A stretch of DNA of 64,000 bases from positions 1 through 64,000 of the forward strand of contig JAFUGA010000037.1 in NCBI GenBank assembly GCA_017469625.1, read 5' to 3'. The stretch is from Bacteroidales bacterium (GTDB lineage: Bacteria > Bacteroidota > Bacteroidia > Bacteroidales > P3). The notes beneath the pieces were generated by a model. It worked only from the letters and a program-made list of their open reading frames with translations. It made no database searches and had not been told where the DNA came from. Each line of letters opens with the position of its first letter. Position 1 is the stretch's first letter. Positions 3,438-58,764 of the stretch are shown in pieces. Made by a program: the position numbers and the translations under genes.

Positions 3438-3736
3438 CAAAATTTAAATAGAAATTATATATGGAAGAAACAAATTTTACATCTTTTTACTTTGAAAAAC
3501 GCAATATTATTTCGCTATGAAAAGTGTTTCGTTTTGTATTTCTATTTCTTAAAATTTGAAAAATAAATCTTAATTTTAGTGTTCTAAATTACCTTTTTTA
3601 CTATAAAACTTACAATTCTAAAACGCTATTTCTTTGTTTTATAAAGAAAAAAATACTCGTTTTTATAGCAAATTTTTCTTTAGTGTTCTATATTTCTTAT
3701 ACTATTTTTGTAAAACGAAGTTTTGTTTTCATAGAA

Positions 3737-3858
3737 CTTTGTTTTAATTTTCTAAAACAAAGAGATAGAATTCTAAAACAAAGTTCTACAAAATTAAAAC
3801 AAAGAGATAGAAAATTCTTTCTTTGTTTTAGAAAAATAAAACAAAGTTTCGTGAGGGT
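3737..3858 (+). repeat. 21-bp module array, locus 1
   Basis: Direct units begin at 3754, 3775 and 3796 in strict 21-bp phase, with another at 3838. Inverted cores (CTTTGTTTT) lie at 3737-3745 and 3821-3829. Two 10-bp hairpins result: 3737-3746 with 3753-3762, and 3821-3830 with 3837-3846. The array lies just downstream of the lpxA terminator. Confidence 0.85.
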
Positions 3859-3938: not shown

Positions 3939-4733
3939 TTAGATATTTGAACGCATATCTGTTGTGCTATGACCTTTTATAAGTCCTCTATCGGATTTTT
4001 CCATAAAGGTTGCTATAATGTTGGTAAATTTTGTTTGTTTTAAAGATTTTATTTCTTCAAGTGCTTCGCTGTATATAAGACCACTCTGAAATACTATGCG
4101 GTAAATATCTTGTATTTCGTTGATTTCGTCTTGGGTAAATCCTCTTCTTCTTAAACCAACTGAGTTAAGACCGCAATAAGATGCAGGAAACTTGCCCACT
4201 TTAACAAAAGGTGGAACGTCCTTATCTATCAAAGAGCCACCCATAAGAATAGCATGCTGACCTATATGTACGAATTGGTGAATGGCACTCATACCTCCGG
4301 TTATTACAAAGTCGCCTACCTCTATGTGTCCTGCAAGGGTGGTATTGTTTGCCAAAACACAGTTGTTTCCTATAACACAATCGTGGGCTATATGCACGTA
4401 AGCCATTATAAGATTGTTATCTCCAACAACTGTTTTGCCACTTGCAGCCGTACCTCTGTTGATAGTAACACACTCTCTTATAGTGTTGTTGTCGCCTATC
4501 TCTACAGTAGTATATTCTCCTTCAAATTTCAAATCTTGGGGAATAGCAGCAATGCTTGCATTAGGAAATATTCTACAATTGTTACCTATTCTTGCACCCG
4601 GAAAAACAACTGCTCCAGAACCAATGTAACAATTATCACCTATAACAACATCTTCGTGGATAACTGCAAAAGGTTCTATTTTAACATTTTTTCCAACTTT
4701 TGCTTCAGGACTTAAATAAAAAAGTTTATCCAT
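3939..4733 (-). CDS. lpxA: UDP-N-acetylglucosamine O-acyltransferase
   Basis: LpxA adds the first 3-hydroxyacyl chain from acyl-ACP to UDP-GlcNAc, the first step of lipid A synthesis in the cytosol. The 264-residue length is normal for the family. The N-terminal two thirds are hexapeptide repeats of a left-handed beta-helix (for example VVIGDN, ARIGNN, VEIGDN, HIEVGD). HIAHDC at residues 114-119 carries the histidines that match catalytic H122/H125 of the E. coli enzyme, and the C-terminal helical part follows. It lies 37 bp downstream of lpxC/fabZ and is probably co-transcribed, so three consecutive lipid-envelope activities share one transcript. Confidence 0.97.
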   Translation of the reverse strand: MDKLFYLSPEAKVGKNVKIEPFAVIHEDVVIGDNCYIGSGAVVFPGARIGNNCRIFPNASIAAIPQDLKFEGEYTTVEIGDNNTIRECVTINRGTAASGKTVVGDNNLIMAYVHIAHDCVIGNNCVLANNTTLAGHIEVGDFVITGGMSAIHQFVHIGQHAILMGGSLIDKDVPPFVKVGKFPASYCGLNSVGLRRRGFTQDEINEIQDIYRIVFQSGLIYSEALEEIKSLKQTKFTNIIATFMEKSDRGLIKGHSTTDMRSNI

Positions 4734-4770: not shown

Positions 4771-6144
4771 TTATGCTTTAGAAACCATTGCCATCATTGT
4801 AGCCTCTACACAGACTTTGTTTCCAACGTATGCAACACCTTTCATAGTTACACAACCTCTTCGTACAGGGCCTTGTTGTGTAAGTTTTAGAATAAGGGTA
4901 TCGCCAGGTACAACCTTGTTTCTGAATTTTACTTCTTCAAATTTCATAAAATAGGTATTGTACTTTTCTTCTGGGGAAACATCTTTCAAAACAAGCATTC
5001 CACCTGTTTGACCAAGTGCTTCTACAATAAGAACTCCGGGCATTACGGGTTCTTCTGGGAAGTGTCCATTGAAGAAATCTTCGTTGCCTGTAACGTTTTT
5101 TAGACCTATAACATAGTCTTCTCCTACTTCTATTATTTTGTCTATTAGTAACATAGGGAAACGATGAGGTAATCTCTTTTTTATATCCACTATATCAAAC
5201 ACGGCAGGTTTGTTAGGGTCGTAAGTAGGGATATTTTTCTCTTCCATAATCTTTTTTATTTTTTTTGCGAATATATTATTTGCAGAATGACCAGGACATT
5301 TTATTATAAAATGACCTTTGATGTGAATACCAACAAGTGCCAAATCTCCTATAAAATCCAAGAGTTTATGACGTGCTGGCTCGTTGTGAAAACGTAAATC
5401 TACATTGTTTAAAATACCTCTTTCAACTTTTACATCAGAAGTATTTTTGTTAAAGAATTTTGCAATCTGTTCTCTTTCTTTCTCTTCCAAAACAGAATCT
5501 ACAAATATTATAGCGTTGTTTAAATCTCCTCCTTTTATGAGATTGTGCTGTACCAACATCATTATTTCAGATAAAAAAACGAATGTTCTACAGCAAGCAA
5601 AATCTTTGTTGAAAGAATTTAGATTGTCCAACTCTGCTATTTGTGTTCCTATAAGTGAAGATGAGAAATCTATAGTGCTTGTAACAGAAAAATCTTCAGA
5701 AGGCAAAGCCCAATACTCTATATCTTTGTCTTTGTAGTGTATAGGTTCGTTTATAGAATAGTATTTGCGTTCTTTGTCTTGTTCTTCTATACCTGCTTGC
5801 TCCAAAAGTTCTATCCAATATTTTGCACTACCATCTAATATTGGTACTTCTTCGCAATTTACATCTATTTCTATATTATCTATATAGTTTGCATATAAAG
5901 AGACCATAAGATGCTCTATTGTGGAAATCTTTGCACCGTCTTTTTCTATGGAAGTACCTCTTGATGTATCTGTTACTAACATAGCATCGGCAGGAATTAT
6001 AGGCTCGTTTGGTAGGTCTATTCTTTTAAAGAATATTCCTTTACCAGCATCGGCAGGCTTTAAAACAACCTTTGATACTTTGCCACTGTGCAAGCCTTTT
6101 CCTTCAATGCTTACGCTTCTTGTTATTGTCCTTTGTTTTACCAT
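4771..6144 (-). CDS. lpxC/fabZ: Bifunctional UDP-3-O-acyl-GlcNAc deacetylase / 3-hydroxyacyl-ACP dehydratase
   Basis: This is the LpxC-FabZ fusion characteristic of Bacteroidota. The N-terminal part (to about residue 300) is the zinc deacetylase of the committed lipid A step, with IEHLM and FHNEPARHKLLD carrying the zinc ligands. The C-terminal part (about 310-457) is the hot-dog fold dehydratase, with LPHRFP and NGHFPEEPVMPGVL holding the catalytic His and Glu. The fused enzymes compete for 3-hydroxyacyl-ACP, linking lipid A to fatty acid elongation. ATG at 6144 is chosen because the longer frame begins at a TTG lying inside the -7 box. Length is then 457 residues. Confidence 0.96.
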   Translation of the reverse strand: MVKQRTITRSVSIEGKGLHSGKVSKVVLKPADAGKGIFFKRIDLPNEPIIPADAMLVTDTSRGTSIEKDGAKISTIEHLMVSLYANYIDNIEIDVNCEEVPILDGSAKYWIELLEQAGIEEQDKERKYYSINEPIHYKDKDIEYWALPSEDFSVTSTIDFSSSLIGTQIAELDNLNSFNKDFACCRTFVFLSEIMMLVQHNLIKGGDLNNAIIFVDSVLEEKEREQIAKFFNKNTSDVKVERGILNNVDLRFHNEPARHKLLDFIGDLALVGIHIKGHFIIKCPGHSANNIFAKKIKKIMEEKNIPTYDPNKPAVFDIVDIKKRLPHRFPMLLIDKIIEVGEDYVIGLKNVTGNEDFFNGHFPEEPVMPGVLIVEALGQTGGMLVLKDVSPEEKYNTYFMKFEEVKFRNKVVPGDTLILKLTQQGPVRRGCVTMKGVAYVGNKVCVEATMMAMVSKA

Positions 6145-6153
6145 AATAGAGTG

Positions 6154-6184
6154 CAAAAATATACAATATTTTCTACAGCAACAA
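6154..6184 (-). promoter_or_regulatory. Promoter of lpxC/fabZ-lpxA
   Basis: On the minus strand, TTG (6184-6182), a 20-bp spacer and TATTTTTG (6161-6154). The box ends 9 nt before the ATG at 6144, so the predicted leader is only a few nucleotides. Confidence 0.75.
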
Positions 6185-6212
6185 GAAAAAAAAGAAAAAA
6201 ATGGAATAATTA

Positions 6213-6245
6213 TTGCTTTAATCTAAAATTAAATCATTATTTTTG
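6213..6245 (+). promoter_or_regulatory. Promoter of the secreted-protein gene at 6269
   Basis: TTG (6213-6215), 22 bp, TATTTTTG (6238-6245), 23 nt before the ATG. Confidence 0.55.
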
Positions 6246-6268
6246 CAAAGTTATAAAGAGTATAGAAT

Positions 6269-6739
6269 ATGAAAAGATTGCTTTTATTTACAGTAGTTAT
6301 ATTATCGTGTCTATGTGTTAAAGCACAGACAAATACAGAAACAGAAAATATATGTTATCCTTATATGTTTTCAAAAGATTATGCTGTAGTAGGGGTTTGT
6401 GCAAAGACAACAGATGAAGAGTTGTTGAACATAAGGAAAGATATATTGAAATATACATCTATAAGGTTTATAAATTTTGATGTCATAAGAGGAAAAGACG
6501 GAGATATATACTTTTTATCTATGGCAGTAGATTGCAGAGATGGATATAAAGGGGATATTTCTCATGCTTTTGAACCGGGAGATACAACTTATTATGGGTT
6601 TATAAGAGATTACACAAAACAACCAAATAAAGTTGCATTTTACATGGGTAATCTGAATGCAGAAACATCTTGTATAAAACACGTAGAACAAAGGGTTGCT
6701 ACACTGAAAGAACAAGAAGAAAAAGCAAACGAAAATTAA
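6269..6739 (+). CDS. Small secreted protein of unknown function
   Basis: A 156-residue protein with a clear signal peptide (MKRLLLFTVVILSCLCVKAQ, cleavage after the AQ) and no membrane segment afterwards. The mature part contains VDCRDGYKGD and ends in a charged helix. No family is recognised. It is transcribed alone, divergent from lpxC/fabZ, and closed by its own terminator, so it is not part of the ribosomal cluster that follows. It is probably periplasmic or outer-membrane associated. Confidence 0.75.
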   Translation: MKRLLLFTVVILSCLCVKAQTNTETENICYPYMFSKDYAVVGVCAKTTDEELLNIRKDILKYTSIRFINFDVIRGKDGDIYFLSMAVDCRDGYKGDISHAFEPGDTTYYGFIRDYTKQPNKVAFYMGNLNAETSCIKHVEQRVATLKEQEEKANEN

Positions 6740-6748
6740 AAAAAATAG

Positions 6749-6780
6749 AACTTGATTAGAAAAAAATCAAGTTTTTTATT
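6749..6780 (+). terminator. Rho-independent terminator
   Basis: 9-bp stem AACTTGATT (6749-6757) with AATCAAGTT (6765-6773), then a T run. It separates the secreted protein from rpmG. Confidence 0.8.
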
Positions 6781-6808
6781 GTAGTTTAAAAAAAAGTGTG
6801 TAATTTTG
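6779..6808 (+). promoter_or_regulatory. Promoter of rpmG-DUF4295-ftsY
   Basis: TTG (6779-6781), 19 bp, TAATTTTG (6801-6808). Its -33 element overlaps the preceding terminator's T run. Confidence 0.75.
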
Positions 6809-6833
6809 CACTTTCAAAAAAATTAAGAGAACA

Positions 6834-7022
6834 ATGGCAAAGAAAGTAAAAGACGTAAGAGTACAGGTTATATTAGAATGTACAGAGCAGAAGGCTTCAG
6901 GAGTTCCTGGTATATCAAGATACGTTACTACAAAGTCGAAGAAAAACACTCCTGAAAGATTGGAACTTAAGAAATACAACCCTTATCTTAAGAGAGTAAC
7001 AGTACATAAAGAAATTAAATAA
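6834..7022 (+). CDS. rpmG: Large subunit ribosomal protein L33
   Basis: A 62-residue basic protein with the L33 signature [17 protein letters not shown] at the C-terminal end. It binds 23S rRNA near the E site. Only one Cys remains (ILECTEQ), so this is the zinc-free C-minus form. It starts a cluster with DUF4295 (15 bp downstream) and ftsY, the usual Bacteroidota arrangement. rpmB (L28), which commonly precedes rpmG in this group, is absent here. Confidence 0.95.
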
Positions 7023-7037
7023 TAAGGAGAATAGATT

Positions 7038-7196
7038 ATGGCAAAGAAAGTTGTTGCAACATTAAAGACATCTGAAGGTGCAAGTTTCGCAAAGGTTATA
7101 AGAACAGTACGTTCAAAGAAAACAGGTGCTTATATCTTTACAGAAGAATTGGTTCCTGCAGATAAGGTAAAAGAAACCATAGCAAAGAAAAACTGA
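7038..7196 (+). CDS. DUF4295 family small basic protein
   Basis: A 52-residue lysine-rich protein (MAKKVVATLK...ETIAKKN) preceded by a good AAGGAGA ribosome site. DUF4295 proteins are Bacteroidota-specific and sit between L33 and FtsY. Their role is unknown, but size, charge and context suggest association with the ribosome. Confidence 0.85.
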   Translation: MAKKVVATLKTSEGASFAKVIRTVRSKKTGAYIFTEELVPADKVKETIAKKN

Positions 7197-7314
7197 GAAA
7201 TTGTTTCTAAAACAATTTACTTTATTTGAAGATAATGGGTGGTCAAATTCTTTCAAATAGTGAAGGAATTGACTGCCTTTTTCATTGTGTGTAAAAAATT
7301 AAATACTGAAGAAT

Positions 7315-8283
7315 ATGGGTATCTTTTCATTTTTAAAAAAGCAAGACAAAGAGTCTTTGAACAAAGGTTTGGAAAAAACCAAAGAGAGTGTCTTTTCCAA
7401 AATAACACGTGCTATTGCAGGAAAATCAACAATAGACGATGATGTATTAGATAATCTTGAACAGGTACTTGTAGAAGCAGATGTTGGTGTAGATACAACA
7501 CTTAAAATTATAGATAGAATACAGGCGAGAGTAACACGAGATAAATACATCGGTACTTCAGAACTTAAACGTATTCTAAGAGAAGAAATAGCCGAACTTT
7601 TGAAGGAAAACGAGAATGGAAACGAAACAAATGGTTTTGATTTTCCTAAGGGAGATAAACCATACGTTATTCTTGTTGTGGGAGTCAATGGAGTAGGAAA
7701 GACAACTACTATAGGCAAATTGGCTTACAACTTTAAACAGGCAGGAAAGAAAGTTGTACTTGGTGCAGCAGATACTTTCAGAGCAGCGGCTATAGACCAA
7801 CTGAAAATATGGGCAGAAAGGACTCAAACAGATATAGTTTGTCAGGATATGGGTTCAGACCCTGCTTCTGTGGCTTTTGATACTTTGAAATCTGCTATAG
7901 CAAAACAGGCAGATGTTGTAATAATAGATACAGCAGGAAGACTACATAACAAAGTCGGTTTGATGAATGAACTTGGCAAAATAAGAAAAGTATTGCAGAA
8001 ACTTATGCCAGAGGCTCCTCAAGAAGTGTTATTGGTTTTAGATGCTTCAACAGGACAAAACGCAATAGAACAAGCCAAACAGTTTACTGCTGCAACAGAT
8101 GTTAATGCTTTGGCTTTGACAAAACTTGACGGCACAGCCAAAGGCGGAGTTGTGATAGGAATATCCGATATGTTTAAAATACCTGTAAAATATATAGGTT
8201 TGGGAGAAAAAGCCGAAGATTTACAAGTCTTCAATAGGCAAGCATTTGTAGAAACTCTTTTTGAAAATTCCGATAAATTATAA
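7315..8283 (+). CDS. ftsY: Signal recognition particle receptor FtsY
   Basis: FtsY is the GTPase that receives SRP-ribosome complexes at the inner membrane. The 322-residue NG-domain form has a short N-terminal part (the acidic A domain is almost absent), a helical N domain, G1 GVNGVGKTTT near residue 122, the insertion-box region DTFRAAAIDQL, G3 DTAGR, and G4/G5 TKLDGTAKGG. It lies 118 bp after the DUF4295 gene on the same strand. Confidence 0.97.
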   Translation: MGIFSFLKKQDKESLNKGLEKTKESVFSKITRAIAGKSTIDDDVLDNLEQVLVEADVGVDTTLKIIDRIQARVTRDKYIGTSELKRILREEIAELLKENENGNETNGFDFPKGDKPYVILVVGVNGVGKTTTIGKLAYNFKQAGKKVVLGAADTFRAAAIDQLKIWAERTQTDIVCQDMGSDPASVAFDTLKSAIAKQADVVIIDTAGRLHNKVGLMNELGKIRKVLQKLMPEAPQEVLLVLDASTGQNAIEQAKQFTAATDVNALALTKLDGTAKGGVVIGISDMFKIPVKYIGLGEKAEDLQVFNRQAFVETLFENSDKL

Positions 8284-8320: not shown

Positions 8321-8965
8321 ATGAAAAAAACATTGTTAATCGTTGCTCTTTGTGTGGCAACCTTATTTGTAAAAGCACAAAACCAGCATCACTTTTCCAT
8401 GTCTATAGGATATGGTTATATGCTTAGTGATATAGAAAATACAACACCGTTTGCCAACTATGCAAATGAAAGTCATCAACGCCGTATGCACAATGGTATA
8501 AACTATGAATTGGATTACGATTGGGGTTTTCATCAAAACTTTTCTTTAGGTGCTGTTTTCTCTATGTACAACGCTTTTGATTCTTATTACCCTAATAGTT
8601 CTGCAAACGAAACTCGTTCAGATGATATATACATATTTTATGTAGGACCTTCATTTCTTGCTCATACAGATTGGATAAAAGAACATTGGAACCTATATGC
8701 AAGAGCAACCGTTGGATATATGAACTTTAGAAATGCAATGAGAGGAACTGCCAACCTTACTTTCAAAAGACCAACTTTTGGTTATGGAATAGAAGCAGGT
8801 TGTGAATATCTTCTAAGTAAATATTTCTCACTTGTAGGACAAGTTTCTTATATGGGAGGAAGTGTAAGCAAAGTAAAAGACGGTGCAGACAATAAGTACG
8901 AGTTAGGTGATAGCGAAAATATTTCACGTCTTAATATTTCACTTGGTGTGAAAGTGAAACTGTAA
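8321..8965 (+). CDS. Outer-membrane beta-barrel protein
   Basis: A 214-residue protein with a signal peptide (MKKTLLIVALCVATLFVKAQ). The mature region alternates aromatic and polar residues (FSMSIGYGYML, YARATVGYMNFR, FGYGIEAGCEY) and ends with a strand ISLGVKVKL, as in small 8-stranded outer-membrane barrels of the OmpX/porin-like type. No precise function can be given. It starts 37 bp after ftsY and ends at the hairpin of repeat locus 2. Confidence 0.75.
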   Translation: MKKTLLIVALCVATLFVKAQNQHHFSMSIGYGYMLSDIENTTPFANYANESHQRRMHNGINYELDYDWGFHQNFSLGAVFSMYNAFDSYYPNSSANETRSDDIYIFYVGPSFLAHTDWIKEHWNLYARATVGYMNFRNAMRGTANLTFKRPTFGYGIEAGCEYLLSKYFSLVGQVSYMGGSVSKVKDGADNKYELGDSENISRLNISLGVKVKL

Positions 8966-9010
8966 AACAGGATTTTAATTTCAGTGAAATAAAACTTTAT
9001 TCTAAATTTT

Positions 9011-9046
9011 TAAAACTTCGTTTTAGAAAAATAAAACGAAGTTTTA
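9011..9046 (+). terminator. Terminator-like hairpin, locus 2 of the 21-bp repeat family
   Basis: A perfect 15-bp stem (9011-9025 with 9032-9046) and 6-nt loop, followed by TTTTG. The core is AAAACGAAG instead of AAAACAAAG on one arm, with the matching change on the other arm, so pairing is kept. Confidence 0.8.
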
Positions 9047-9079
9047 TTTTGTCAAAACAAAGACTTATTCTTATAGATT

Positions 9080-13927: not shown

Positions 13928-13990
13928 AAAACAAAATTTCACTCTCACGAAACAAAGAGATAGATTTCTAAAACAAAGTTTCGTGAAAAC
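13928..13990 (+). repeat. 21-bp module array, locus 3
   Basis: Three units at 13928, 13949 and 13970 in exact 21-bp phase, between the convergent MBL gene and metK. Confidence 0.8.
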
Positions 13991-14092: not shown

Positions 14093-15337
14093 TTATAAAT
14101 TGAACTCTTGTTTTATTTTATCTACATAATCCAATTTTTCCCAAGGGTAAAACCAAACTGTTTTCTTCTCTTCTTTGTTGCCGTCTTTTATTATACATAC
14201 TTCTTTCTCATAAGGTGTTCTTCCAAAATGACCATAGGTAGAAGTAGGAGAGAAGATAGGATTTTTCAAACCAAAACGTTCTATGATAGAATAAGGTCTA
14301 AGGTCAAATATCTTCAAAATTTTTTCTGCTATTTCGCCATCGGATATGTTTATATGTGAAGAATTGAACGTATCTACAAACAATCCAACCGGTTCAGCCA
14401 TACCTATAGCGTATGCAACTTGCACAGAAACTTCATCGCACAAACCACTTGCTACCATATTCTTTGCAACGTGTCGCATAGCATAAGCAGCACTTCTATC
14501 AACCTTTGAAGAATCCTTGCCAGAGAAAGCACCACCACCATGAGAACCTTTTCCACCATAAGTATCTACAATAATCTTTCTACCTGTTAGACCTGTATCT
14601 CCATTAGGCCCTCCTATTACAAATTTGCCTGTAGGATTGACATACAACTTATAACCCTTAGAAAACAAATCTTTTGTCCTTTGATATTTTTGTTTTTCTA
14701 CTACTCTTGGAATAAGAATATTCTCTATATCCTCTTTTATTTTGGAGGTTTCAACGTTTTCATCGTGTTGAGTAGATAATACTATGGTATCTACAGAGAT
14801 AGGATTGTTGTTATCATCGTACTCTATAGTTACCTGAGATTTGGAATCGGGACGAAGATAAGGCATAAGAGAAGTAGTCTTTCTTATTTGTGCAAGTTCA
14901 TAAACAAGTTGATGTGCAAGCATAACAGGTAAAGGCATAAAATCTTCTGTATCTTTGTTTGCATAACCAAACATCATACCTTGGTCTCCTGCTCCTTGCA
15001 TAAGAGGGTCCTGTCTTTCTACTCCCTGATTTATATCCGGGCTTTGTTCGTGTATAGTTGAAATAACAGCACAAGAATCTGCTGCAAACTGATATTCTTC
15101 TTTGGTGTAGCCTATGTTTCTTATAACCTTGCGTGCTACTTCTTGTACATCTACATAAGAGTTGCTTTTTACCTCTCCTGCAAGAAAGACAAGTCCTGTT
15201 GTTACAAGAGTTTCGCAAGCAACTTTTGAACTACTGTCTCTTCTAAGAAACTCATCTAAAAGAGCGTCTGAAATTTGGTCGGCTATCTTGTCTGGGTGGC
15301 CTTCCGATACTGATTCTGATGTTATAAAACGTGACAT
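14093..15337 (-). CDS. metK: S-adenosylmethionine synthase
   Basis: MetK makes SAM from methionine and ATP. The 414-residue protein has the family signatures ESVSEGHPDKIADQISDALLDE near the N-terminus (ATP-binding His14), GAGDQGMMFGYA near 115-127, and the phosphate loop GGGAFSGKDSSKVDRSAAY near 266-285. It is transcribed alone. The 150-nt leader begins with a SAM-II-type riboswitch, so the product probably represses its own synthesis. Confidence 0.97.
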   Translation of the reverse strand: MSRFITSESVSEGHPDKIADQISDALLDEFLRRDSSSKVACETLVTTGLVFLAGEVKSNSYVDVQEVARKVIRNIGYTKEEYQFAADSCAVISTIHEQSPDINQGVERQDPLMQGAGDQGMMFGYANKDTEDFMPLPVMLAHQLVYELAQIRKTTSLMPYLRPDSKSQVTIEYDDNNNPISVDTIVLSTQHDENVETSKIKEDIENILIPRVVEKQKYQRTKDLFSKGYKLYVNPTGKFVIGGPNGDTGLTGRKIIVDTYGGKGSHGGGAFSGKDSSKVDRSAAYAMRHVAKNMVASGLCDEVSVQVAYAIGMAEPVGLFVDTFNSSHINISDGEIAEKILKIFDLRPYSIIERFGLKNPIFSPTSTYGHFGRTPYEKEVCIIKDGNKEEKKTVWFYPWEKLDYVDKIKQEFNL

Positions 15338-15430
15338 TTCCTTTTGTTGTTTTAAATTATTAAATCATAAATTAAGCAAAACGTGGAAATGATAAAGAAT
15401 TGATAAATCTCAATACTGAATAAAAGTTAT

Positions 15431-15485
15431 GTTGTTTTAGCATTCTTTTATTGTGGTTGCAATCAATCCAAATCTGTCCACAAAT
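15431..15485 (-). ncRNA. SAM-II-type riboswitch upstream of metK
   Basis: On the minus strand a 6-bp P1 (TTGTGG at 15483-15478 with CCACAA at 15456-15451) encloses a loop containing GATTT and ATTGCAA. It is followed by an A-rich segment and GCTAAAAC (15441-15434). The order GAUUU - AUUGCAA - P1 3' arm - UAAA - GCUAAAA matches the SAM-II aptamer as I recall it, and the P1 bases differ from alphaproteobacterial examples but stay paired. A pseudoknot between loop TTTGG (15472-15468) and CTAAA (15440-15436) is possible. The aptamer starts within about 10 nt of the predicted transcript start and ends about 95 nt before metK. Confidence 0.83.
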
Positions 15486-15492
15486 CTTTTTG

Positions 15493-15629: not shown

Positions 15630-16664
15630 ATGAATCAAAACCTTAATCCAAATTCTGAAAGATTGTCAAAACAAGAGCGAGATTACGAGAGAGCCTTGAG
15701 ACCTCTTGGCTTTGAAGATTTTACAGGACAAGAGGATATTAAGGAGAACTTGAAAATATTCGTTGCAGCCGCAAAAGAAAGGGGGGAAGCTTTAGACCAC
15801 GTTCTCTTGCATGGACCTCCAGGTTTAGGAAAAACAACTTTGTCTTATATCATTGCAAATGAATTAGGTGTAAATGTAAAAATGACTTCAGGTCCTGTGC
15901 TTGACAAACCGGGAGAACTTGCAGGCATTCTTACAAATCTTGAACCTAATGACGTTTTGTTTATAGATGAAATACATAGACTTTCACCTATAGTAGAGGA
16001 ATATCTTTACTCTGCTATGGAAGATTATAAGATAGACATACTTATAGAAAGTGGACCTAATGCAAAAAGTGTAGAGATAGCGTTAAATCCTTTTACTCTT
16101 ATAGGTGCTACAACAAGAAGTGGTTTATTAACAGCCCCACTTCGTTCAAGGTTTGGAATAACTTGTAGGTTGAAATATTACAATCACGAAACATTATGTT
16201 CCATTGTCAAACGTTCATGTAAGATACTTAAAACTCCGATTTATGATGATGCAGCATTAGAAATAGCCTCACGTTCAAGAGGAACACCGCGTATAGCCAA
16301 CCTTTTACTCAGAAGAGTAAGAGATTTTGCCCAGATAAAAGGTGATGGAGTTATAACGGTGGAAATTGCACGTATGGCTCTAAAGGCTTTGAATGTAGAT
16401 AAGAATGGTTTAGACGAGATGGACAATAGAATACTTGCTACTATTGTAGATAAGTTTAAAGGAGGTCCTGTAGGACTTACGACTATTGCAACAGCAGTAG
16501 GAGAAGATGCAGGGACAGTAGAAGAGGTTTATGAACCGTTTTTGATACAAGAAGGTTTTCTTATGAGAACTTCAAGAGGTAGAGAAGCGACACTTTTAGC
16601 CTATAAACACCTTGGAAGAGATGTTTCTTTGAAGAAAACCACCCAACAGAATTTATTTGATTAA
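15630..16664 (+). CDS. ruvB: Holliday junction branch migration helicase RuvB
   Basis: RuvB is the AAA+ motor that drives branch migration with RuvA. The 344 residues include the N-terminal [11 protein letters not shown], Walker [10 protein letters not shown] near residue 64, Walker B FIDEIHRL near 111, sensor 1 [18 protein letters not shown], and the C-terminal winged helix ending in a region like [14 protein letters not shown]. ruvA and ruvC are not nearby. The gene is divergent from metK and monocistronic. Confidence 0.97.
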
Positions 16665-19819: not shown

Positions 19820-19880
19820 CAAAATCTCTATTGACTGTAAGACACAGTAATCATAAATTTTAATGTTTTTTCATAATTTC

Positions 19881-19913
19881 AAAGGGTGAAAACAAAACTT
19901 CACCCTTTTTCTT
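19881..19913 (+). terminator. Terminator of the T9SS surface protein gene
   Basis: 10-bp stem AAAGGGTGAA (19881-19890) with TTCACCCTTT (19899-19908), then TTCTTATTTT. Confidence 0.85.
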
Positions 19914-19920
19914 ATTTTCT

Positions 19921-20193
19921 AAAACAAAGTTCTGCGAAAATAAAACAAAGAGATAGAATTTTAAAACAAAGAGATAGAAATTTAAAACAAAGTTCTACGA
20001 AAATAAAACAAAGAGATAGAAATCTAAAACAAAGTTCTACGAAAATAAAACAAAGAGATAGAAATTTAAAACAAAGTTCTACGAAAATAAAACAAAGAGA
20101 TAGAAGTCTAAAACAAAGTTTCGTGAAATTAAAACAAAGAGATAGAAAAATAAAACAAAGTTATATACAAATAAAACAAAGAAAAAGAAATCA
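19921..20193 (+). repeat. 21-bp module array, locus 4 (13 units)
   Basis: Thirteen consecutive direct units, each exactly 21 bp, start at 19921. Each begins with AAAACAAAG. The remaining 12 bp are of B type (AGATAGAA...) or A type (TTCTACGAAAAT or variants), mostly alternating; the last two units are diverged, and a decayed unit follows to about 20215. It is the only array with no inverted unit, and it follows a conventional terminator. Confidence 0.95.
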
Positions 20194-20282
20194 AAAAGAA
20201 GTTTTACGAGGAAAAATGATAGATATATTTGTTAAAATTTATTATAAAAAAATACTTTTATCTAAAAATATCTAAGAAAATC

Positions 20283-27817: not shown

Positions 27818-27922
27818 AAAACAAAGTTCTATTTTTCTGAAACAAAGAGATAGAATTCTAAAACTTTGTTTTAGAAAATTAAAACAAAGTTCTACGAAAT
27901 TAAAACAAAGAGATAGAAAAAG
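27818..27922 (+). repeat. 21-bp module array, locus 5 (5 units)
   Basis: Units at 27818, 27839, 27860, 27881 and 27902 keep exact 21-bp phase. The unit at 27860 has the inverted core AAAACTTTGTTTT and can pair with the next unit (11-bp stem, 8-nt loop). Confidence 0.9.
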
Positions 27923-28033: not shown

Positions 28034-29404
28034 TTACTTAGCCATAAGTTTTGCGTACTCTTCATAGAAGTAAGTAATACTTTCTATACCGTTGAAGAAC
28101 TGTTGTAAAGGATAGTTCTCGTTTGGTGAGTGTATAGCATCACTTCCCAATCCAAATCCCATAAGTATGGATTTTGTTCCCAAGATTCTTTCAAATCCTG
28201 CAACGATAGGAATACTTCCACCGCTACGAGTAGGTATAGGTTGTTTGCCATAAGTTTTTTGCATTGCTTTTTCGGCAGCCTTGTATGCTGGAAGGTCAAG
28301 TGGAGATACGTATGCATAACCACCATGCAAAGGAGTAACCTCTACTTTTACACATTTAGGAGCAATGTTTTCTATATGTTTTGCTACTCTTTCAGTTATT
28401 ACTTCAAAATCTTGGTCAGGTACAAGACGGAAAGATATTTTTGCACTTGCAGAAGATGGTATAATAGTTTTAGCACCTTCTCCTGTATATCCACCCCAAA
28501 TACCGCAAACGTCAAAACTTGGACGTACACCTGTACGTTCTATAGTTGTGTAACCTTTTTCGCCATGCAAAGAAGGAGAACCTGTAGTTGCAAGATATTC
28601 TTCTTCGGAAAAAGGAGCTTTATTCATCAAATCTCTTTCCTCTTGTGAAAGTTCAATAACTTCTTTGTAAAAATCTGGCACTGTGCAACGATTATTCTCG
28701 TCTTGCAATTGAGATATTATCTTGCACAAAATGTTTATAGGGTTAGCCACAGCACCACCATATATACCAGAATGTAAGTCTGCTTTTGATCCTGTAACCT
28801 TTACTTCTATGTACCCCAAACCTCTAAGACCTGCAGTTATAGAAGGAACGTCTGAGGCTATCATTGAAGTATCTGAAACAAGGATAACATCACTCTTTAA
28901 CAATTCTTTGTTCTTTTCACAAAAACCATAAAGAGAACCACTACCTATTTCCTCTTCACCTTCAAGCATAAACTTAACGTTACATTTCAAAGTATTGCTT
29001 TTAACCATAAATTCAAAAGCCTTTGCCTGCATAAAAGATTGACCTTTATCGTCATCGGCACCTCTTGCCCAAATAATATCATCTTTAACTACAGGTTCAA
29101 AAGGATTGGTACGCCATTGTTCTACAGGGTCTATAGGCATTACATCATAATGACCATAAACCAAAACAGTAGGATAATCTTTGTTTATTATCTTTTCGCC
29201 ATAAACGACAGGGTTTCCTTCGGTTGGCATTACTTGAGCCTTATCTGCACCGGCTTGTAGTAAGAGTTCTTTCCAGCGTTCTGCACATTTTACCATATCC
29301 TCTTTGTGTTCAGTCTGTGAAGATATAGAAGGAATTTTTATTAACGAAAATAATTCATCTAAGAATCTGTCTTTGTTCTCTTGTATATAAGATTTAATTT
29401 CCAT
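28034..29404 (-). CDS. M20-family dipeptidase
   Basis: 456 residues, cytosolic. The co-catalytic zinc motifs of the M20 family are clear: GHYDVMP (His, Asp) near 85, ARGADDDKG (bridging Asp) near 115, EGEEEIGS (catalytic and metal Glu) near 150, then DTSM and the late LGSDAIHSPNEN His. The lid/dimer domain lies at about 190-360. It likely releases amino acids from di- or oligopeptides, in keeping with peptide use by many Bacteroidales. It ends in its own terminator; the SPOR-like gene starts 48 bp upstream, so co-transcription is possible. Confidence 0.92.
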   Translation of the reverse strand: MEIKSYIQENKDRFLDELFSLIKIPSISSQTEHKEDMVKCAERWKELLLQAGADKAQVMPTEGNPVVYGEKIINKDYPTVLVYGHYDVMPIDPVEQWRTNPFEPVVKDDIIWARGADDDKGQSFMQAKAFEFMVKSNTLKCNVKFMLEGEEEIGSGSLYGFCEKNKELLKSDVILVSDTSMIASDVPSITAGLRGLGYIEVKVTGSKADLHSGIYGGAVANPINILCKIISQLQDENNRCTVPDFYKEVIELSQEERDLMNKAPFSEEEYLATTGSPSLHGEKGYTTIERTGVRPSFDVCGIWGGYTGEGAKTIIPSSASAKISFRLVPDQDFEVITERVAKHIENIAPKCVKVEVTPLHGGYAYVSPLDLPAYKAAEKAMQKTYGKQPIPTRSGGSIPIVAGFERILGTKSILMGFGLGSDAIHSPNENYPLQQFFNGIESITYFYEEYAKLMAK

Positions 29405-29452
29405 GTTGTTGAATTGTTTTATATAAGGTTTAATAAAATTTTTTAATTCTCT

Positions 29453-34546: not shown

Positions 34547-34847
34547 ATAGAAATTTGCTGTTTTTCTTATACTTTTTTATGTTAAAATTTTATTGTAAAA
34601 CCACATAAAACACAATTTTTATACCACAGAACCAAGTTTTGAATGGAATTTTCTAACTCTTTGTTCTATTCTCACGAAACTTTGTTTTAATTTTCCATCT
34701 CTTTGTTTTAATTTCACGAAACAAAGTTTTAGAATTCTATCTCTTTGTTTTAATTTTCTCTTTCTTTGTTTTAGAAAATTAAAACAAAGTTTCGTGAAAA
34801 GGGTATTTAATTATGCAAAATTGTTTTATTATATATAATGTATGAAA
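34547..34847. other. Convergent spacer occupied by repeat locus 6
   Basis: This spacer lies between the stops of the RsmI-like gene and phoH. It has no conventional GC-containing terminator, so hairpins within the repeats are the only terminator-like structures. Confidence 0.7.
34647..34801 (-). repeat. 21-bp module array, locus 6 (6 units plus one inverted)
   Basis: Minus-strand units have cores at 34659, 34680, 34701, 34722, 34743 and 34764, all in 21-bp phase. The core at 34722 is inverted. A plus-strand unit at 34781 pairs with the core at 34764 (10-bp stem). Confidence 0.9.
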
Positions 34848-44623: not shown

Positions 44624-44770
44624 AAAACAAAGTTTTATTTTTCTAAAACAAAGAAAGAGAATTCTAAAACAAAGAGATAGATTTCTAAAACTTTGTTTCG
44701 TGAAATTAAAACAAAGTTCTACGAAATTAAAACAAAGAGATGGAAAATTAAAACAAAGTTTCGTAGAAAT
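44624..44770 (+). repeat. 21-bp module array, locus 7 (7 units)
   Basis: Units start at 44624, 44645, 44666, 44687, 44708, 44729 and 44750. The unit at 44687 has the inverted core; AACTTTGTTT there pairs with AAACAAAGTT of the next unit (10-bp stem). Confidence 0.92.
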
Positions 44771-50343: not shown

Positions 50344-50399
50344 AATAAAAGTAAATTTCAACAAAACAACATCTTTCTCTATCTTTGTTTTAATTTCAC

Positions 50400-50483
50400 G
50401 AAACAAAGTTTTAGAAAATTAAAACAAAGTTCTACAAAATTAAAACAAAGAGATAGAATTCTAAAACAAAGTTTCATAAGAGT
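50400..50483 (+). repeat. 21-bp module array, locus 8 (4 units)
   Basis: Units at 50400, 50421, 50442 and 50463, with an inverted core CTTTGTTTT just before (50383-50391) that pairs with the first unit. Confidence 0.85.
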
Positions 50484-54111: not shown

Positions 54112-54321
54112 GAGACAAAGTTCTACGTCCACAGAACTTGATTCTAATTTTCTAAAACAAAGAGATAGAATTCTAAAACTTTGTTTCGTGAAATTAAAAC
54201 AAAGAGATAGAAAATTAAAACAAAGTTCTACAAAATTAAAACAAAGTTTCGTAAAATTAAAACAAAGAGATAGAAAATTAAAACAAAGTTTCGTGAGTGT
54301 AGAACTTTGTTATGAAAATAT
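54112..54321 (+). repeat. 21-bp module array, locus 9 (10 units)
   Basis: Ten units from 54112 to 54321 keep 21-bp phase. The outer units are diverged (GAGACAAAG at 54112, AGAACTTTG at 54301), and the unit at 54175 has the inverted core. The array follows the 3' end of the T9SS gene at 54383. Confidence 0.92.
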
Positions 54322-57713: not shown

Positions 57714-57752
57714 AAAACAAAGTTCAATTTTTTTGAATCTTTGTTCTATTTT
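57714..57752 (+). repeat. 21-bp repeat family, locus 10 (partial, palindromic)
   Basis: AAAACAAAG at 57714-57722 followed by an inverted copy (TGAATCTTTGTTC) forms an interrupted hairpin downstream of the RlmB-type gene. Confidence 0.6.
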
Positions 57753-57852
57753 TCTGTAAATAGTATTTAGGAGTTTATATCAAAAAATATAGAAAAATAC
57801 TATTTTATTTTGTATATAATTAACAAAAAATCTAAGTTCTAAAACAGTGAAA

Positions 57853-58631: not shown

Positions 58632-58715
58632 GTTTTTCTATCTCTTTATTCTATTTTTCTAAAACTTTGTTTTAATTTCGTAGAACTTTGTTTTAAATTT
58701 CTATCTCTTCGTTTT
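58632..58715 (-). repeat. 21-bp module array, locus 11 (4 units)
   Basis: Minus-strand units with cores at 58644, 58665, 58686 and 58707 keep 21-bp phase. The core at 58707 has the AAAACGAAG variant. It is downstream of the LolD-like gene. Confidence 0.85.
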
Positions 58716-58764
58716 AGAATTCTAAAACTTGATTATAAATTTACATAATAAAAAAAATAAGTTT

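Follow-up and report, generated by a model that had tools for sequence, protein, structure and literature searches.

The window, the whole stretch of 64,000 nucleotides analysed here, contains a tandem array of 13 units at positions 19921–20193 (+), located between a CHU_C-domain gene and the rimP-nusA-infB genes. The array measures exactly 13 × 21 = 273 bp, AAAACAAAG opens every unit, and units of two types, A and B, alternate along it. An ordinary intrinsic terminator of the upstream CHU_C-domain gene (AAAGGGTGAA...TTCACCCTTTTT; 19880–19917, +), identified by direct reading, lies ahead of the array, and the orthologous site upstream of rimP in genome G005 is empty. A 129-aa open reading frame (ORF) called at 19886–20275 (+) spans the array and is judged spurious, since all common unit types are stop-free in one lattice frame.

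The window has 60 copies of the core AAAACAAAG where shuffles predict 3.7 (~16-fold excess). Of 11 loci listed in an earlier note on this DNA, eight stand, with at least two exact cores on one lattice, and three are degenerate, with one exact core apiece. Besides the 13-unit array, the eight comprise 11 lattice positions of mixed orientation in a convergent gap (3628–3858); a 5-unit array with one unit inverted (27818–27922); two 7-unit arrays in convergent gaps, one with its outer units inverted relative to each other (34655–34801, −) and one preceded by an intrinsic terminator (44624–44770, +); a 5-unit array in a convergent gap (50379–50483); a 9-unit array whose flanking genes are on the minus strand (54133–54321, +); and a further 5-unit array (58640–58744, −). 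The degenerate loci are a vestige (TAAAACTTCG...AAAACGAAGTTTTA; 9011–9073), which is matched by a similar vestige in the corresponding gap (8965–9079 here) of the relative G007; a short array in a convergent gap (13928–13990, +), followed by a terminator-like hairpin of minus-strand metK, read by eye; and a very degenerate site that overlaps a called ORF at its 5' end (57714–57755). The neighbours of the arrays are housekeeping genes, including rimP, metK, an lpxA-type acyltransferase, a rarA-type AAA ATPase and a SpoU methylase. The sole Rfam match in the window above the gathering score is a SAM-II riboswitch (RF01726, 60.5 bits; 15427–15487, −) directly upstream of metK (14093–15337, −). 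The earlier note had named an Rfam match as evidence against a new element; no family covers the arrays. Blastn against phage and plasmid records likewise gave no match, and viral collections hold none.

Register, unit anatomy and placement in the host genome

The host genome is a Bacteroidales MAG of 2.37 Mb in 65 contigs, and it contains 408 exact AAAACAAAG-N12-AAAACAAAG pairs, against 0 for a reversed-pattern control. Detailed statistics cover 816 kb of it and use simple longest-ORF gene calls. In this sample, 524 of 534 same-strand core pairs no more than 210 bp apart have a spacing that is a multiple of 21; among opposite-strand pairs, 247 of 263 fall on the identical 21-bp lattice. The sample holds 108 arrays with at least two exact cores on one lattice, which extrapolates to ~314 arrays genome-wide; with diverged units counted, arrays average 6.8 units and account for 1.9% of the sampled sequence, or 15% of its non-ORF DNA. 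The genome-wide phase analysis proposed earlier thus bears out three claims made from the window: units are exactly 21 bp, phase is held through inverted units, and the two-turn spacing, which persists through inversion and across species, is more conserved than the bases.

The inverted core is displaced by 4 bp, which places the dyad axes of the lattice at unit positions 7 and 17.5; since units flip about these dyads, an inverted unit stays in phase. Folding the lattice on its dyads gives the consensus TAAAACWWWGTTTTA together with 6 variable bp. Of the two half-sites, taken in the outward direction from the dyad, one is nearly always GTTTTA (501/1116); the second takes the form GAGATA, GTTCTA, GTTTCG or GAAAGA. 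The unit had originally been described as the core plus a 12-bp half of A or B type. The 21-bp step and the two types hold, and the dyad lattice is the better description: the building block is a 15-bp site, TAAAAC-NNN-G(T/A)NNTA, repeated every 21 bp. The reported alternation of the types is far above chance (successive types BA 88, AB 56, BB 25, AA 13; P = 4e-15). Unit conservation declines stepwise outside arrays, so that the edges fade gradually, as in satellites, and a search of array ends for a constant border sequence or flank found none.

Arrays occupy about a quarter of intergenic gaps. Cores number 447 outside and 116 inside ORFs in the 816 kb, mostly within arrays, and 4 of the 108 arrays overlap an ORF call, at least one of these being the spurious ORF over the 13-unit array. 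Convergent gaps carry arrays most often (25/63, 40%), followed by tandem (56/225, 25%) and divergent gaps (14/72, 19%); the convergent–divergent difference has P = 0.013. Array orientation is independent of the direction of transcription, and cores show no strand bias by contig of the kind expected from replication polarity. A DNA uptake sequence (DUS) would be a single dispersed motif, present in coding DNA too, and a KOPS-like polar motif would be strand-biased by replichore; the concentration of cores in arrays outside ORFs and the absence of contig strand bias speak against both. A CRISPR array, which consists of identical repeats with unique spacers, is also rejected: each of the two unit parts recurs throughout the genome, and units are inverted inside arrays.

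Array turnover and the period in relatives

All genomes compared are MAGs, in which long arrays may be mis-assembled. First, contig L055, binned in a Clostridia MAG, is 95% identical to host contig C27 and so comes from the host species or one very close to it. The array on L055 holds four copies of AAAACAAAGCTTTAGAAAATT against one in the host genome, with the remaining array and the flanks nearly identical. Arrays therefore gain and lose exact whole units, and this within-species change in copy number by unit length, seen at one locus, is that of a minisatellite (bacterial VNTR); it favors the slippage-driven repeat that was among the options first put forward. Second, arrays come and go at intergenic sites among congeneric species. 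In addition to the gap upstream of rimP, an array on contig C1 at ~10.07 kb (locus L087) corresponds to a 79-bp gap in G007, the array-free host gap at 29404–29452 holds a 3-unit array in G007, and a 4-bp host gap holds a 3-unit array in G005. Third, the core and the spacing persist across genera while the filler is homogenised in each species, a pattern of concerted evolution. In a sample of 393 Bacteroidales, the exact core pair hardly occurs beyond the host's family, within which the core and its 21-bp step are found in at least four genera, each species with its own filler. With one variable base allowed, G007, G009, G010, G012, G005, G016 and G022 have 12 to 181 pairs each. The fillers are AAAACGAAG+AGTTAGAAAAAT in G007, +TTTCAGAAAATT in G009, +AAATAATTTACT in G022 and AAAACAAAG+AAATAATTTTCT in G016 and G307; an A-core form is present in G307 and G024. 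In genus g4 the register is identical, inverted units included (96/101 and 11/13). A genome scan with the exact filler of the host B unit has no match beyond the host genome, and a three-core scan matches related Bacteroidales MAGs together with unrelated, mostly coding, repeats.

Arrays of unrelated sequence in the host's family follow the 21/22-bp step as well. Many genomes of the host's genus (half) are without the core, and a sequence-free scan finds other 21- or 22-bp intergenic arrays there. In period spectra covering tens of kb per genome, with core-containing runs removed, 19 family genomes together show 33 lag-21 runs and 50 lag-22 runs, where the remaining lags average 2.6, and these lag-21/22 runs come from 11 of the 19; 15 genomes of other families yield 3 and 4 runs at the two lags, with no peak. 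The scan of related genomes that had been recommended thus recovers the 21-bp step, in letters that are often wholly different and with a period of 21 or 22. Palindromic units are rejected as a general trait of 21/22-bp arrays, as they are significant in only 12 of 74; it is the TAAAACNAAG family, along with a few others, that shows the dyad lattice. One genome of the host's family, G015, has a step of 11 bp.

Several further structures were observed in these genomes. The 11-bp-step arrays of G015 (L137, ~16469–16583; L138, 15390–15565) have mutually inverted halves that give long hairpins. Arrays of a 22-bp A7-NNN-T7 palindrome lie within long inverted-repeat arms (such as GTTTGCCTGCCGCCCCGTG...) at L192, L108 (G001) and L196 (G013), and a hairpin-plus-array element of this G001/G013 type occurs also upstream of rimP. 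In G024, oppositely oriented 21-bp TAAAACAAAG-type arrays flank a 22-bp AAGATGTACATCTT array (L147, 11389–11689; L148, 2966–3258). Outside the host's family, the Prevotella MAGs G427 and G428 (L086, L071) have a few 21-bp arrays with the core AAAACAA(A/C/T)G and another palindrome centre. In G005, the frame of an upstream gene appears to run into the first unit of a 3-unit array (L069, ~4080–4340), with its stop inside the array. Relative to C27, L055 carries an inserted gene pair (5533–7255) between the conserved flank and the array at 7383–7591; by eye, the translations resemble a DNA adenine methylase and a restriction endonuclease.

Candidate origins and significance of the arrays

REP/BIME elements are short palindrome-bearing intergenic repeats, present in hundreds of copies with a 3' bias and in both orientations, and their RAYT is a Y1 transposase. 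The arrays resemble them in number, intergenic location, palindromes, 3' bias and two orientations; unlike them, they form a tandem 21-bp lattice in a host genome without a Y1 transposase. Iterons and the end repeats of Tn7 and Mu are protein-binding repeats of ~17–22 bp, comparable in having a unit near two helical turns and both direct and inverted copies. The arrays differ in being spread genome-wide over about a quarter of gaps, instead of lying at an origin or element end, and no MuA/TnsB-type or rve protein was found. The TAACTGA heptamers of marine Beggiatoaceae, short intergenic direct repeats proposed as post-transcriptional signals (PMC4679880), likewise form abundant dispersed intergenic sets, whereas the module here is 21 bp and strand-independent. 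The closest parallel is BrickBuilt of Porphyromonas gingivalis, a 23-nt minisatellite inside a MITE (unit AGAYCATARTATCCTCTCRTRTG, 19 copies) that is intergenic, has a constant leader and tail with inverted-repeat ends, and varies in unit number by strain (PMC4596501). Shared with BrickBuilt are the order Bacteroidales, the intergenic location, spacerless short tandem units, unit numbers that differ between genomes, and predicted stem-loops. The arrays differ in their 21-bp unit with core AAAACAAAG, their number (~300), their single dyad lattice with units in both orientations, their lack of a constant leader or tail, their unrelated sequence, and the presence of one core across genera. Because unit length, leader and tail, and sequence all disagree, the arrays are not members of BrickBuilt, though they work like it. 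The opening claim that no described element has this structure therefore needs qualification: a comparable element exists, and the arrays fall outside it. Searches of the open-access literature found no description of a 21-bp Bacteroidetes repeat.

The reading preferred here, at about even confidence, is that the arrays form a MITE-like minisatellite family, non-coding, intergenic and dispersed, that is homogenised within species and built of two-helical-turn modules. Family-specific machinery would copy and paste whole modules and would thereby set the register; candidates are a recombinase- or transposase-like activity, or template switching during replication, with a bound dimer as guide. 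Arrays would build up where insertion is tolerated, mainly past gene 3' ends, and any cellular use would be secondary. Several observations weigh against this reading. No mobilising enzyme was found among the domains searched: Y1 (PF01797) has 0 matches in G000, G016 and G024, and Mu/Tn7 C-terminal (Mu_transpos_C) and rve domains are absent from the host genome and the core-bearing relatives tested. Neither a target-site duplication nor a constant terminal inverted repeat was found, the four filled/empty gap pairs being too diverged to show a duplication. Core and spacing kept across genera with diverged filler exceed plain neutral slippage, and the support comes from one array for copy number and from four gaps for gain and loss.

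The main rival is a functional DNA-binding lattice, on which a dimeric, possibly nucleoid-associated protein would recognise TAAAACNNNG half-sites every two turns on one helix face, with arrays as cooperative loading sites and their spacing under selection. This is a serious possibility, but we consider it unlikely. It accounts for the palindromic consensus, for a core and spacing conserved across genera while the filler drifts, and for orientations indifferent to transcription and contig strand, as double-strand recognition expects. Conservation in the core reaches ~95% at C5/G9 and ~88% at the outer T/A, but these percentages are inflated because exact cores were the search criterion for arrays, and in decayed units at the edges C and G are retained less than A/T. 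Moreover, array positions turn over among congeneric species, the core is missing from half of the genus, where other 21/22-bp sequences take its place, and no candidate protein was found.

A strict MITE moved by a known transposase family, its 21/22-bp units serving as transposase-binding sites, or REP units moved by a RAYT, is improbable. Tn7 and Mu ends carry ~22-bp sites, the outer units of many arrays are mutually inverted, the 22-bp arrays of G001 and G013 sit inside long inverted-repeat arms, and BrickBuilt is a precedent in Bacteroidales; yet the Y1, Mu_transpos_C and rve domains are missing from the host genome and from the core-bearing relatives tested with each, and neither a duplication nor a fixed terminus was found at the arrays.

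It is very unlikely that the arrays act in RNA, as bidirectional terminators or mRNA 3'-end protectors. On either strand they fold with far lower energy than dinucleotide shuffles (mean z −4.4 and −4.5), and they are biased towards gene 3' sides, but shuffling whole units within an array leaves the energy unchanged (mean z −0.3 and −0.4), so the hairpins follow as a by-product of the mixed-orientation lattice, and the 13-unit array scarcely folds (z −0.3). Intrinsic terminators proper, with a GC-rich hairpin plus U-tract that would replace other terminators at gene ends, are rejected by a unit-permutation z of ~0 and by the separate terminators ahead of arrays. Such ordinary terminators lie between stop codon and array in 16 of 52 cases, about as often as in array-free gaps (40/108); together with orientations that ignore gene direction, this leaves the termination element suggested earlier unsupported. 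Phased A-tract curvature has almost nothing in its favor beyond AT-rich repeats with a period of two turns, since AAA/TTT power at 10.5 bp is lower than in shuffles (0.40 vs 1.28) and the net bend predicted by a wedge model is 12.1 degrees per 21 bp, near the 11.2 of array-free gaps. Heptapeptide coding (21 = 7 codons) can be set aside: on each strand, 91 of 107 arrays have one lattice frame open, but this follows from common unit types that are stop-free in that frame, the strong stop avoidance in a simulation ignoring exact-core ascertainment shrinks to a weak effect in a position-matched control (16 vs 24.7 stops, P about 0.01), placement is convergent and orientation-free, and the 22-bp arrays of relatives are unable to hold a frame.

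Bacterial tandem repeats are usually put down to slippage, which favors no particular period. A family-wide, sequence-independent preference for 21–22 bp, kept through inversion and across species, implies that something measures the DNA helix, be it a recombinase, a polymerase complex or a DNA-binding protein. We tentatively propose, at less than even confidence, that the host's family possesses dedicated, sequence-agnostic machinery that makes or maintains intergenic arrays in two-turn steps (21–22 bp, sometimes one turn, 11 bp), each species with its own sequence and TAAAACNAAG as one widespread version. If so, the arrays would be the bacterial counterpart of satellite DNA, built on a structural unit, and array DNA used as bait, combined with strain-level unit changes, would offer a handle for finding the protein. 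Arrays of one step but often unrelated letters in related species point to a hitherto undescribed process by which DNA is made or read two helix turns at a time.
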